A stretch of DNA of 64,000 nt from positions 1 through 64,000 of IMG/VR virus record IMGVR_UViG_3300030102_006261; one strand, written 5' to 3'. The first letter of the stretch is position 1, and each line of letters opens with the position of its first letter. Below are positions 14,725-58,651 of this stretch, in pieces. The position numbers and the translations under genes are program-made. This DNA comes from a virus. The notes beneath the pieces are model-generated. The model did not search any database. It saw only the letters and a list, made by a program, of their open reading frames with translations, and was not told where the DNA came from.

Positions 14725-15044
14725 CAAGCAGGAAGATTGATTGGGGCTATACTAAGCCTATGACAGATGTAGAGAAGAAGTGTGCGAATCAACAACAATA
14801 CGCAGTCACATGCGTTATTGTCATAACTGGATTCAACATCATGTATGGCGCACTTATGGTATATAAAGTTGTTCCCGTTTGGTTGGGGATGATTCTTGCC
14901 TTTCTTACCATGGGAATCGTTGCACTAAAGGCACGAAGAGATCTCTTGGATGAAGGTGAAACCCTAACTGAATCACCTGAACACTTCCGCACACGAATGC
15001 ATCAGAAAAATTTGGAAAAGGGTATTGACAACAACGGAATCTGA
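14721..15044 (+). CDS. two-span membrane protein
   Basis: 107 residues from the ATG at 14721 (ATGA overlap with the previous stop). A polar N-terminus of about 33 residues is followed by two hydrophobic segments, VTCVIVITGFNIMYGALMVY and VWLGMILAFLTMGIVALKA, separated by a two-to-four-residue turn, then a charged C-terminal tail (FRTRMHQKNLEKGIDNNG). A helical hairpin of this type fits a holin-like or inner-membrane accessory protein. No family recognised. A strong promoter for the next gene starts inside its end. Confidence 0.55.
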   Translation: MTSRKIDWGYTKPMTDVEKKCANQQQYAVTCVIVITGFNIMYGALMVYKVVPVWLGMILAFLTMGIVALKARRDLLDEGETLTESPEHFRTRMHQKNLEKGIDNNGI

Positions 15045-15065: not shown

Positions 15066-15123
15066 AATCGGAAGCTGGTTAGATGCAACAGCTACCCCCG
15101 ATTAAATTAATTTTATGCATCTA
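15066..15123 (+). promoter_or_regulatory. structured mRNA leader with H-type pseudoknot
   Basis: Helix 1: AATCGG (15066-15071) with CCGATT (15098-15103). Helix 2 above it: AGCTG (15073-15077) with CAGCT (15089-15093). The 11-base apical loop contains TAGATGCA (15080-15087), perfectly complementary to TGCATCTA (15116-15123), an 8-bp pseudoknot whose end lies 5 bases before the AAAGGAG ribosome-binding site (15129-15135 region). This geometry could control ribosome access, as in riboswitches or protein-bound autoregulatory leaders. I do not recognise a known riboswitch class. Confidence 0.65.
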
Positions 15124-15142
15124 CTGCAAAGGAGCGTTGGTA

Positions 15143-15412
15143 ATGACCAACACTATGACTAAGAAGCGGCGCGTAATCAACTATCTCGCGTCCGGTAAGG
15201 GCCTCACCGAGGCAGAAGCACGTAGCCGTTTTGGAGTTGCAAACCTCCGTGCTACCATCAGCGACATCCGTGACATGGTTGAAGCTCACGGTAACTGGGA
15301 GATCACCTCGGAGGCTACCTCCACCGGTAAGACCCGTTACTTCATGGAAGACACTCACCCCGGTGAGCGTTCCTACGGTTTCGACAACATGGGTCGTCGA
15401 TTCGCACTCTGA
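15143..15412 (+). CDS. small helix-turn-helix DNA-binding-type protein
   Basis: 89 residues from the ATG at 15143, eight bases after AAAGGAG. A predicted winged-helix fold: helix KKRRVINYLASGKGLTEAEA (about 6-25), then RSRFGVANLRATISDIRDMV (27-46), followed by a beta hairpin with YFMEDTHPGERSYG. Codons are unusually GC- and C-ended (like the capsid gene), pointing to high expression. It has its own strong promoter, a pseudoknot leader and a terminator, so it is a separate regulated unit. A transcription regulator or abundant DNA-coating protein are both possible; autoregulation through the leader is an attractive inference. Confidence 0.7.
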   Translation: MTNTMTKKRRVINYLASGKGLTEAEARSRFGVANLRATISDIRDMVEAHGNWEITSEATSTGKTRYFMEDTHPGERSYGFDNMGRRFAL

Positions 15413-15441
15413 TTCTTTTATAGATACTAGTGCAAAACGGT

Positions 15442-15469
15442 CTTGGTGAGATGTCAAATGCTCATCAAG
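15442..15469 (+). ncRNA. stable 3'-UTR hairpin
   Basis: A 9-bp stem, CTTGGTGAG (15442-15450) with CTCATCAAG (15461-15469), one G-U pair, closing a 10-base loop. It lies between the helix-turn-helix gene and its terminator. Possibly an mRNA stabiliser or part of a 3'-UTR-derived small RNA. Confidence 0.5.
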
Positions 15470-15479
15470 CCTTCGAGAG

Positions 15480-15535
15480 AGTGCGGTGAAATATTTCTAG
15501 GAAGCGTCTGCCTAGCCCGCACTTTCTTTTTTTTT
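15480..15535 (+). terminator. intrinsic terminator with bulged stem
   Basis: AGTGCGG (15480-15486) pairs with CCGCACT (15517-15523), with an inner CTAGG/CCTAG stem (15497-15501 with 15511-15515), then a T-run interrupted by one C (15523-15535). It ends the transcript of the helix-turn-helix gene. Confidence 0.75.
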
Positions 15536-15705: not shown

Positions 15706-15720
15706 ATTTCAATAAAGGGG

Positions 15721-15748
15721 TTGACAAACCCAACAGATCGAGTATAAT
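15721..15748 (+). promoter_or_regulatory. strong sigma70-like promoter
   Basis: Perfect TTGACA (15721-15726), 16-base spacer, perfect TATAAT (15743-15748). No gene follows; the next coding start is at 16120, beyond a terminator, so this promoter serves a noncoding RNA. Confidence 0.85.
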
Positions 15749-15754
15749 ACTCGT

Positions 15755-16040
15755 ATGACAATTGAATAATAGAATGAAGAGAGACTAATTACCTCTCTTC
15801 GGGACTCGCATAATAATCCTCTTGACTGGGGATAGTGCAATCTCTGAATGGTTTAGCGACCTGTTCCTTAGCGATGCAGAAATGCTTGCGGGATGATCCT
15901 TAGCGGGATGTGCAGAGATCTCTTAGTAGGGTACACTTCACTCGTACAGTCACCCGAAAAGTTCTGGTAATTACGACAATCCAGAGTCCCATTGAACGAA
16001 GCAGGGGCTGGTAGAAATATCAGCCCCTGTCTTTTTTTTT
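15755..16040 (+). ncRNA. candidate novel structured RNA, about 290 nt
   Basis: The 414-base gene-free stretch 15706-16119 holds a strong promoter, this transcript, its terminator and a late promoter. No open frame of note exists in it. Visible structure: an 8-bp hairpin GAAGAGAG/CTCTCTTC (15776-15783 with 15793-15800); a long-range helix ATCTCTG (15840-15846) with CAGAGAT (15913-15919) enclosing three TTAGCG repeats (15853, 15868, 15900) and small hairpins; a GGGT/ACCC pair near 15929-15955; TCTGG/CCAGA (15963-15967 with 15981-15985); and the terminator stem. The first hairpin loop and the TCTGG hairpin loop both contain TAATTA and could kiss. It does not show the hallmark sequences of tmRNA, RNase P RNA or 6S RNA that I know. 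Function unknown. Confidence 0.7.
16002..16040 (+). terminator. intrinsic terminator of the noncoding RNA
   Basis: A perfect 9-bp stem CAGGGGCTG (16002-16010) with CAGCCCCTG (16021-16029), 10-base loop, followed by TC and nine T. Confidence 0.9.
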
Positions 16041-16045
16041 ACTGA

Positions 16046-16053
16046 TATAAATA
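16046..16053 (+). promoter_or_regulatory. T4-type late promoter
   Basis: Exact TATAAATA shortly after the terminator and 66 bases before the small gene at 16120. It could drive 16120-16725 and the tRNA-Arg beyond, though the leader is longer than at most other late promoters here. Confidence 0.55.
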
Positions 16054-16119
16054 ATTGGGTAAATAGAAAATAATACACAAATGTCTTGTGTAATACTAAA
16101 GAAGATGATACAATAACAA

Positions 16120-16260
16120 ATGAGCGCAAAACATTCAGCCGGAAAGGGTGATAAATATCGCCCAATAGATTATAAAAAGTATGCAGAAAACTATGAAAAG
16201 ATTTTTTCTAAAAAAGTGAAAGGTAGAAAAAATGGAAACCAAGATCGTAAGACTAAGTAG
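16120..16260 (+). CDS. small basic conserved-type phage protein
   Basis: 46 residues, MSAKHSAGKGDKYRPIDYKK then a Tyr/Lys-rich helix. The GKGDKYRPxD motif with following KYxENYEKIF recurs in small proteins I associate with marine T4-like phages, always of unknown function. It overlaps the following LSm-like gene by 29 bases in another frame, an arrangement that supports both being real. No strong ribosome-binding site. Confidence 0.55.
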   Translation: MSAKHSAGKGDKYRPIDYKKYAENYEKIFSKKVKGRKNGNQDRKTK

Positions 16261-16573
16261 TGGTGAAGAAATCATTTGTAAAAGTGAAATGATTGATCGT
16301 GATGGAATTGAGTTTATCAAGATCAAGAACCCAGCAATTCTAGTTCCCGTTGGGGACGGACAGCTTGCGTTTGCACCATGGCTACCATATGGTGAAATCA
16401 GCAGCGGTGTTGAAATCGAAAAGAAGTTTATCGTTTTCACAATTAAGCCCCAGACAGAACTTTCAAATCAGTACAATGAAACCGTGGGTAACGGTATTGT
16501 TGTTCCAAGTCAGGGTCAACTCACTCCGGCTGGTGCTGGATCTCCGAGTTCTCTGAAGATCAGTGGCTCTTAA
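16232..16573 (+). CDS. LSm-like barrel protein, paralogue of 58043-58651
   Basis: 113 residues. The opening TKIVRLSSGEEIICKSEM has the Sm1-like signature (I-V-x-L-x-S-G-E-x-I-I), continuing with IKIKNPAILVP, FAPWLPYGE, and KFIVFTIKPQTELSNQYNE. The product of the gene after UvsW opens the same way and keeps the W, I-x-x-x-P and Y-N positions, so they are paralogues. Sm-like barrels bind RNA or partner proteins; here neither RNA nor partner is known. The last 25 residues are Pro/Gly/Ser-rich and probably flexible. Confidence 0.65.
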   Translation: METKIVRLSSGEEIICKSEMIDRDGIEFIKIKNPAILVPVGDGQLAFAPWLPYGEISSGVEIEKKFIVFTIKPQTELSNQYNETVGNGIVVPSQGQLTPAGAGSPSSLKISGS

Positions 16574-56547: not shown

Positions 56548-58059
56548 ATGAGTGATTTAATTATTAAACCTGTGGATTCTGTTCACATATACATTGAGTG
56601 TGAAGAAAGTTTAGCCCGAGAGTTAAACGAATATTTTACGTTTCTTGTACCAAATTATCAATTCACACCAGCATACAAAAAAAGAAAATGGGATGGTCAA
56701 ATTCGTCTGTTTAATTTGTACAGTCGAAGAATATACACTGGACTATTGAACTATGTAATTAAGTTTGCTATTGATCGAAATTATTCATATGAAAATCAAG
56801 TTCAGTCAGATAATAGTGTGACAAAAGAATCTGTAATAGATTTACTCACAAGTATCAAAGTTAGTGCGAATGGTGAAAATATAACACCACACGATCACCA
56901 AGTAAAAGCCATATATCATGCTCTAAAGAAAAATAGATGCTTACTACTTTCTCCTACTGGAAGCGGTAAATCTCTGATAATTTATTATTTGATGCGTCAC
57001 TATCTGGAAAATATTGACGAGGATAAAAAAATACTCATAGTTGTTCCCACCACAGGGTTAGTGTCGCAAATGTACAATGACTTCAAAGAATATTCCTCGA
57101 ATGATACATGGGATATCACAAAAAATGCACATGTAATATTCTCAGGTCAGGATAAGTTGACTGACAAAAGAATAGTTATTTCTACGTGGCAAAGTATATA
57201 CAAGATGCCCATTGAATATTTTAATGACTTTTCGGTTGTCTTCGGTGACGAGTGTCATTTATTCAAAGCAAAGTCCCTGACTTCTTTGATGTCTAAAACA
57301 AAAGATTGCCCCTATAAGATAGGAACAACCGGAACTCTAGATGGATCCCAAACTCATAAGTTAGTTATCGAGGGATTATTTGGACCTGTTTTTAACGTGG
57401 TAAAAACAAAAGAACTAATGGAGCAGGATCTACTTTCAAACTTATCCATTGATTGTATTACCTTACAATATAATCAGGATTCAATCAACGAGATCAAAAG
57501 AGCAAAGTACATGGATGAAATTAAATGGCTAACACAGAAAAAAGAGAGAAATGATTTCATAACCAATTTATGCTGTAGACTAAAGGGAAATACACTTTTG
57601 CTGTTCAATTATGTCGAGCAACATGGAATCCCTTTATATGAAAAAATTAAAGAGATATGTCCAAATGAAAAGGTTTTTCTGATTCATGGGGGCACAGACA
57701 CAGAGCAAAGAGAAAGGATAAGAAAAATTGTTGATAAGGAATCTAAAGCTATTCTTGTCGCGTCTTATGGAACCTGCTCTACTGGCATTAATATTAGGAA
57801 TATTAACAATATTGTTTTTGCTTCGCCTTCTAAGTCAGTAGTCAGAGTATTGCAGTCTATAGGTAGAGGATTAAGAAAAACAAAGACAAAGGACAAAGTA
57901 AAATTGTATGATATATCTGATGATTTATGTCATAAGAGCTATAGAAACCACACCCTCCGTCACCTCGATGAAAGAATCAAGATATATACTAATGAAGAAT
58001 TTAAGTATGAGAAAACTAATATCCGCATAGAAGGAGATACTCATGAGCAACTCTTATAG
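56548..58059 (+). CDS. uvsW: UvsW, DNA/RNA helicase
   Basis: 503 residues (T4: 503). Superfamily 2 motifs in order: Walker A SPTGSGKS (about 135-142), DECH box GDECHLF (231-237), GTTGTLDG, and motif VI RVLQSIGRGLRKT (431-443). It unwinds branched DNA and R-loops, shutting off origin replication. Ends overlapping the LSm-like gene by 17 bases. Confidence 0.94.
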   Translation: MSDLIIKPVDSVHIYIECEESLARELNEYFTFLVPNYQFTPAYKKRKWDGQIRLFNLYSRRIYTGLLNYVIKFAIDRNYSYENQVQSDNSVTKESVIDLLTSIKVSANGENITPHDHQVKAIYHALKKNRCLLLSPTGSGKSLIIYYLMRHYLENIDEDKKILIVVPTTGLVSQMYNDFKEYSSNDTWDITKNAHVIFSGQDKLTDKRIVISTWQSIYKMPIEYFNDFSVVFGDECHLFKAKSLTSLMSKTKDCPYKIGTTGTLDGSQTHKLVIEGLFGPVFNVVKTKELMEQDLLSNLSIDCITLQYNQDSINEIKRAKYMDEIKWLTQKKERNDFITNLCCRLKGNTLLLFNYVEQHGIPLYEKIKEICPNEKVFLIHGGTDTEQRERIRKIVDKESKAILVASYGTCSTGINIRNINNIVFASPSKSVVRVLQSIGRGLRKTKTKDKVKLYDISDDLCHKSYRNHTLRHLDERIKIYTNEEFKYEKTNIRIEGDTHEQLL

Positions 58060-58651
58060 AATTATAAAATTAAAAAGCGGAGAGGATCTAATTACAAAAA
58101 TCAAGGGTAGAGAAAAGGGTAAGTTAATCGTAGAAACGCCCATGATTTTCAAATCAAATATAATCACAGACTTTGGTGGTATTCCAAAGGAAGTCACCAT
58201 ACTTCAAAAATGGTCTAAGTACTCAACAAATAAGGAAGTAAAAATTCCAGAGGATTACATCATTAGTTACTTCACACCAATTGATGAAGCTATTCGTCTT
58301 TATAATCTAGAGAAAAATAAAGAGGAAAAGGAATCAAAAATTAGTAAGCAACTGCCTCCAATGAATAATGATGTTATCAAAAAAATGCTCGATGATTTAG
58401 TTGATTTTAAATCAAATCAAGAGCCGTATGAAGGTGTGTTTAAGTTTATAGGCTCAGAGAAAGACATGGAAGAATTTCTTGATAAGCTAGAAATGAACTT
58501 AGATGACGAGTTTTATAATGAGGAAATGTACATACCATTCGAAGAAATAAACGAGGATATGTACACTGGGGATGATGTACATCATCCGGATTATGGTAAT
58601 AGGTGGACTGATTGGGATTCAGACTTAACTGATTTTCTAGAAGAAGATTAA
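58043..58651 (+). CDS. LSm-like barrel protein with acidic tail
   Basis: 202 residues; ATG inside the UvsW gene with AAGGAGATACTC upstream. NSYRIIKLKSGEDLITKIKG is Sm1-like, followed by TILQKWSKYSTNKEVKIPED and YIISYFTPIDEAIRLYN. This half parallels the 16232-16573 product. Then comes a helical, highly acidic C-terminal half (EEFLDKLEMNLDDEFYNEE, ending YGNRWTDWDSDLTDFLEED). The paralogue at 16232 lacks the acidic part. RNA or partner binding is inferred only from the fold. Confidence 0.65.
   Translation: MSNSYRIIKLKSGEDLITKIKGREKGKLIVETPMIFKSNIITDFGGIPKEVTILQKWSKYSTNKEVKIPEDYIISYFTPIDEAIRLYNLEKNKEEKESKISKQLPPMNNDVIKKMLDDLVDFKSNQEPYEGVFKFIGSEKDMEEFLDKLEMNLDDEFYNEEMYIPFEEINEDMYTGDDVHHPDYGNRWTDWDSDLTDFLEED

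Follow-up and report, generated by a model that had tools for sequence, protein, structure and literature searches.

manA RNA (Rfam RF01745), a riboswitch candidate since 2010, is still an orphan, and no ligand is named for it in the manA literature cited here. Weinberg et al. listed it as cis-regulatory and marked one of its helices 'pseudoknot?' (PMC2864571). It is found as a 5' leader in T4-like marine phages, in many copies with a promoter directly upstream. Other structured RNAs of T4-like cyanophages are wcaG, PhotoRC-II, glnA RNA and CfrI, and T4 itself carries RNA C and RNA D (rnaC and rnaD, 139 and 119 nt), which are stable, lie beside the phage tRNA genes and have no known function (PMC3014915, PMC9697503). 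GOLLD and ROOL are encoded by phages or prophages, often near tRNA islands, and symmetric kissing loops with switching palindromes occur in GOLLD and OLE (GGCC, GAUC and AGCU in OLE) (PMC12286853). GOLLD, ROOL and OLE are several times longer than the RNA described here and have no sequence or Rfam relation to it; their cages or dimers were seen by cryo-EM, whereas the dimer proposed below is deduced from sequence.

In this work we analysed a stretch of 64,000 nucleotides (the window) belonging to an IMG/VR virus record of 142,160 bases. T4-like genes are carried (gp32, terminase and gp23), and the nearest isolates are Kyanoviridae cyanophages, with identities of ~54% for gp23 and ~60% for the terminase. 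An earlier note on this DNA had pointed to the interval 15706-16119 as gene-free, with a perfect promoter, dense pairing potential and a terminator. No plausible gene was found there on the + strand. The promoter, TTGACA-16-TATAAT at 15721-15748, matches at 12/12 positions, as does a second one in the window, at 15025. For the 291-nt transcript the folding energy is -94 kcal/mol, compared with -75.4 +/- 5.2 for shuffled sequences (z -3.6; 0/200 shuffles as stable), and a stem-loop at 16001-16030 is followed by CTTTTTTTTT. The 8-bp hairpin (15776-15783/15793-15800) and the 7-bp long-range helix (GGGACUC 15801-15807 with GAGUCCC 15984-15990) were likewise found as the note had described them. 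The features of the locus are as follows.

15721..15748, + strand: sigma70-type promoter, TTGACA-16-TATAAT, with the -10 within the palindrome CGAGTATAATACTCG
15755..16038, + strand: predicted transcript of ~285 nt, its start taken from the -10 and its end from the terminator
15776..15800, + strand: P0, the 5' hairpin, two-sided changes at 9/9 pairs, loop core 15787-15790 AAUU
15801..15990, + strand: core closed by P1 (15801-15807 with 15984-15990)
15808..15838, + strand: P2 hairpin (15808-15811/15835-15838 and 15816-15821/15828-15833)
15841..15918, + strand: P3 (15841-15846/15913-15918), enclosing P4, P5 and P6, two-sided changes at 5/6 pairs
15850..15861, + strand: P4 hairpin GGU(UUAGCG)ACC, invariant
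15871..15889, + strand: P5 hairpin with a GAAA tetraloop (15879-15882)
15896..15909, + strand: P6 hairpin AUCC(UUAGCG)GGAU with the second UUAGCG loop, a UA to CG change in 6 distinct rows
15929..15955, + strand: P7 (15929-15932/15952-15955), 77% of cells paired
15942..15976, + strand: pseudoknot of UCGUA 15942-15946 with UACGA 15972-15976, 96% of cells paired, two-sided changes at 3 pairs
16001..16039, + strand: intrinsic terminator, a 13-pair stem followed by a U-run
16232..16573, + strand: gene for an Sm/LSm-like protein (3BY7 relative), a candidate RNA partner

Homologues were searched by pattern scans of IMG/VR, which yielded 36 loci carrying the core 15776-15990; the pattern matches L073, L076, L079, L081 and L082 did not fit the covariance model and were dropped. 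This model (R1), built from the clade, gives complete copies 172-254 bits and the window core 227.6 bits, and finds one copy of the RNA in the window's own record. BLASTN searches against INPHARED and PLSDB returned no homologue, and the two pattern matches in GTDB genomes, both inside coding regions, were judged to be due to chance. R1 had no match in T4 (AF158101), and so none to RNA C or RNA D there, nor in nine marine phages. Since it also remained blank on P-SSM2 and P-SSM4 despite the presence of canonical manA RNAs there, R1 alone is too narrow to join the two branches.

The fold was evaluated on an alignment of 28 distinct rows (A3). Standard pairs occupy 96.3% of its cells, and two-sided changes occur at 23 pairs, compared with 15.3 +/- 1.6 in shuffled alignments (0/500 reached this number). 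When the partner was slid by 1-3 columns as a control, pairing was only 38-48%. The clade pairs contain 148 G-U cells versus 2 A-C cells, which designates the + strand as the RNA. The interval thus encodes, with near certainty, a real RNA whose structure is conserved among uncultivated T4-like marine phages. The covariation check of the helices that the earlier note had suggested gives compensatory changes among the homologues, in agreement with its view that this is a true noncoding RNA served by a promoter and a terminator of its own.

Among the individual elements, the P2 pair 15818-15831 varies as CG, GC and UA. The same invariant UUAGCG loop is found in P4 and P6, while the P6 stem covaries. 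P7 is replaced by GAAGCAG/CUGCUUC in copies of the L029 type, and the pseudoknot is found as UCGUA/UACGA, UUGUA/UACAA, AUGUA/UACAU and CUUAC/GUAAG. The earlier note had counted three TTAGCG repeats and two loops with complementary TAATTA, all of which are present. Conserved hairpins present two of the repeats as invariant loops (15853-15858 and 15900-15905). The third one (15868-15873), whose 3' part is the 5' strand of P5, is missing in most homologues and so is not conserved. The mutual complementarity of the TAATTA copies is not conserved either. Their pairing was ruled out, as the 5' loop changes to GAUC while the 3' copy, which overlaps a pseudoknot strand, stays AAUU (L028 and L057).

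The kinship of this RNA became apparent in Rfam searches with sister copies. At the gathering cut-off nothing credible was found in the window, and the window copy had no match at E<=10 in the 841 bases scanned. Neither the window nor the sister copies matched tmRNA, RNase P RNA or 6S, whose features the earlier note had not recognized either, or SRP RNA, wcaG, PhotoRC-II, glnA RNA or CfrI. Two sister copies matched RF01745, L044 with 51.5 bits (E=1.5e-12) and L080 with 42.7 bits (E=5.9e-10), both matches spanning model positions 1-192. The gathering cut-off of this family, 55.2 bits, was reached by no clade member tested, and L041, like the window, had no match. The link between the window and manA RNA therefore runs through the sister copies and, since it was seen only when these were scanned, the lack of an Rfam hit in the window is a false negative. 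Our own covariance model of 23 canonical manA RNAs (R2) found 12 of the 30 clade loci searched, with a best E of 2e-7, and in 2 kb around the window site it ranked this site first, with a marginal E of 0.006. The earlier note had called the RNA a novel candidate, to be given up upon a hit to a known family: the branch has such a hit and is not without a family, while the window copy itself has none.

The two branches share the T4-like marine phage setting and, in the same order, the 5' hairpin, the GGGA/UCCC closing helix, P2, P3 with three inner hairpins, P7 with the pseudoknot, and P8 (GGUAUACARUAAYCC). The hallmarks of manA RNA (5' hairpin, GGGA closing helix, P3 multiloop and pseudoknot) are thus all present in the new branch. 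They differ in the inner loops, which are GUGGUG and UACC in manA RNA and UUAGCG here, in the P0 loop, mostly GACG in manA RNA and AAUU or GAUC here, and in that manA RNA is a 5' leader, whereas the new branch is mostly a separate, terminated RNA. On these comparisons, the RNA very probably represents a diverged branch of the manA family RF01745. The canonical pseudoknot sits at the place equivalent to that of the new branch, and only one of its pairs varies (C-G in 63 copies, A-U in 6, none broken). Judged from the alignments, the stronger support for the pseudoknot is that of the new branch rather than of the canonical copies.

Two side observations concern the canonical family. In the Pelagibacter phage HTVC008M a sub-threshold manA-like RNA (L085, 5037-5223; 25.9 bits, E=6.8e-6) lies directly upstream of gp32, a position that the RNA also takes at 15 canonical manA loci. 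Many canonical manA RNAs are followed by a recurrent hairpin, GACCUAAGAUGCAACUC..GAGUCGGGCAGAUGGUC (L099, L107, L125 and others).

We compared the flanks of 30 clade copies with those of the 67 canonical copies having enough flanking sequence, a terminator being counted when its stem was perfect. Strong terminators were found in 20/30 clade and 4/67 canonical copies, and a terminator precedes the first ORF in 18/30 versus 3/67, which does not fit a leader (5' UTR) in the clade. The RNA is thus probably free-standing in this branch. The strict pattern detects an adjacent promoter at 17 of the 36 clade loci; several loci have no promoter immediately 5' of the RNA, which there comes after another gene or a tRNA. 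There is no clear terminator in 10 of the 30 clade loci, and the first ORF begins within 60 nt in 10 of the 30, so that some copies may act in cis. As far as the flanks indicate, the branch would be mostly free-standing, some copies possibly being leaders or processed from longer transcripts.

The -10 palindrome CGAGTATAATACTCG (15738-15753) recurs in nearly all clade promoters and is absent from all other strong promoters listed for the clade loci; it is possibly an operator. The clade RNAs usually adjoin phage tRNA genes and small ORFs, a setting that recalls GOLLD, ROOL and the T4 RNAs C and D. Closeness to tRNA genes was rejected as functional evidence, with 8/22 observed versus 5.3 for random positions in the same stretches.

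As a whole, the explanation that we favour, and consider moderately likely, is that of a diverged manA branch forming a free-standing, terminated and trans-acting RNA that dimerizes via its 5' loop. The main alternative, which we regard as unlikely, is a cis-acting regulator (riboswitch or attenuator), in which the fold senses a metabolite and decides on read-through past the terminator into a gene or tRNA. The listing of manA RNA by Weinberg et al. as a cis-regulatory riboswitch candidate (PMC2864571) speaks for it, and canonical copies directly follow a promoter in 65/78 cases, have their first ORF within 60 nt in 38/67 and, in P-SSM2, end ~16 nt before purL. However, the terminator arms show no relation, either among themselves or with the core. 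Among 15 distinct 5' arms no antiterminator complementarity to the 3' strand of P8/P1 was found (median p 0.67; p 0.12 for the window arm alone against the closing helix), a result that speaks against a riboswitch of the simple attenuating kind, and no aptamer coupled to an expression platform of the antiterminator type was recognized. The downstream genes also vary by locus, including tRNAs, small ORFs and a large tail-fibre-like protein, and the downstream proteins of the clade fall into 13 clusters.

A compact fold could also serve as a 5' stabiliser that keeps RNase E away from early phage mRNAs and tRNA precursors; the free form would then be a leftover or a nuclease sponge. Canonical P0 hairpins start a few nt from the predicted transcript start, the genes most commonly found 3' of canonical copies are gp32 (15 loci) and transaldolase (7 loci), and during infection host RNase E increases through a cyanophage factor (PMC9692554). 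A terminated RNA, however, leaves nothing downstream to shield, and the two invariant UUAGCG loops, the CGCAUAA segment and the covarying pseudoknot exceed the needs of a stabiliser, so that we hold this role to be quite improbable. An antisense-type sRNA pairing with host or phage mRNAs with the aid of the neighbouring Sm-like protein would fit the own promoter, the U-rich terminator and the Sm/LSm-like fold encoded next door, but is highly improbable, because the conserved segments are nearly all paired or in closed loops and expose no long conserved seed, and because there are phages that have the Sm-like gene but not the RNA.

The proposed dimer is based on the P0 loop, which follows the pattern A-N-N-[AAUU or GAUC]-N-N. 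The outer letters of the palindrome change together (AU in 16 distinct rows, GC in 11, mixed in 0), with at least 5 switches between AAUU and GAUC on a tree built without P0, a weakly resolved tree in which 11 of the 22 inner branches are open. The loop letters are so close to each other that they cannot pair inside one chain. The loop thus shows the switching palindrome of the OLE and GOLLD kissing loops, for which such switching likewise backed the symmetric interactions seen by cryo-EM (PMC12286853). With just two loop states and a tree of this low resolution, recombination that swaps hairpins could produce the same pattern as covariation. By analogy, we propose tentatively that two copies of the RNA may be held together by kissing of their palindromic 5' loops, and we would give this only slightly less credence than its opposite. 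In canonical manA RNAs the loop is GACG in 68/79 copies and mostly of the GAUC, AAUU or AGCU types in the rest. GACG is a kissing tetraloop known from murine leukaemia virus. The almost constant self-complementarity of the 5' loop in both branches (GACG, GAUC, AAUU and AGCU types) and the free branch, in which the core can act without a downstream gene, lead to a broader and rather doubtful reading, namely that manA-family RNAs as a whole are homodimeric kissing-loop phage RNAs and not riboswitches.

In the favoured explanation, the pseudoknotted manA-type core would now be transcribed on its own, as an RNA of ~285 nt that ends at a terminator not shared with a gene, and would act in trans as a folded particle. 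Two copies would kiss through the 5' loop (AAUU or GAUC), and a protein or ribonucleoprotein partner may dock at the two identical UUAGCG loops. One candidate for this role is the neighbouring Sm-like protein. The product of 16232-16573 is related to PDB 3BY7 (profile E=7.6e-14; fold E=2.6e-6), the Pfam Sm_like domain was found in 8/20 of its relatives, and in most loci the gene is located downstream of the RNA. Since cyanophages that lack the RNA also have relatives of this gene, the partnership is a candidate one, and any particular partner is improbable.

What is new here is the form: the manA core is found as an RNA of its own, terminated and lacking a platform, so that possible trans action and 5'-loop dimerization of this core become cheaply testable. 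The branch also gives covariation support to a pseudoknot previously marked as uncertain, and its sequences could extend the Rfam manA model, whose present cut-off misses them.

Further observations concern the neighbourhood of the RNA. A weaker second Sm-like relative lies at 58058-58300. A short conserved ORF (16121-16258; MSAKHSAGKGDKYR...) is located between the RNA and the Sm-like gene, and its homologues are found directly 3' of the RNA in several loci. Downstream of a winged-helix gene (15083-15412), positions 15425-15535 contain a second conserved structured element with a terminator. It has no Rfam match and consists of a CUUGGUGAG..CUCAUCAAG hairpin, then GUGCGG..CUxGGAAGCGUCUGCCxAGCCCGCAC and a U-run, with compensatory changes in L002, L028, L050, L057 and L058.
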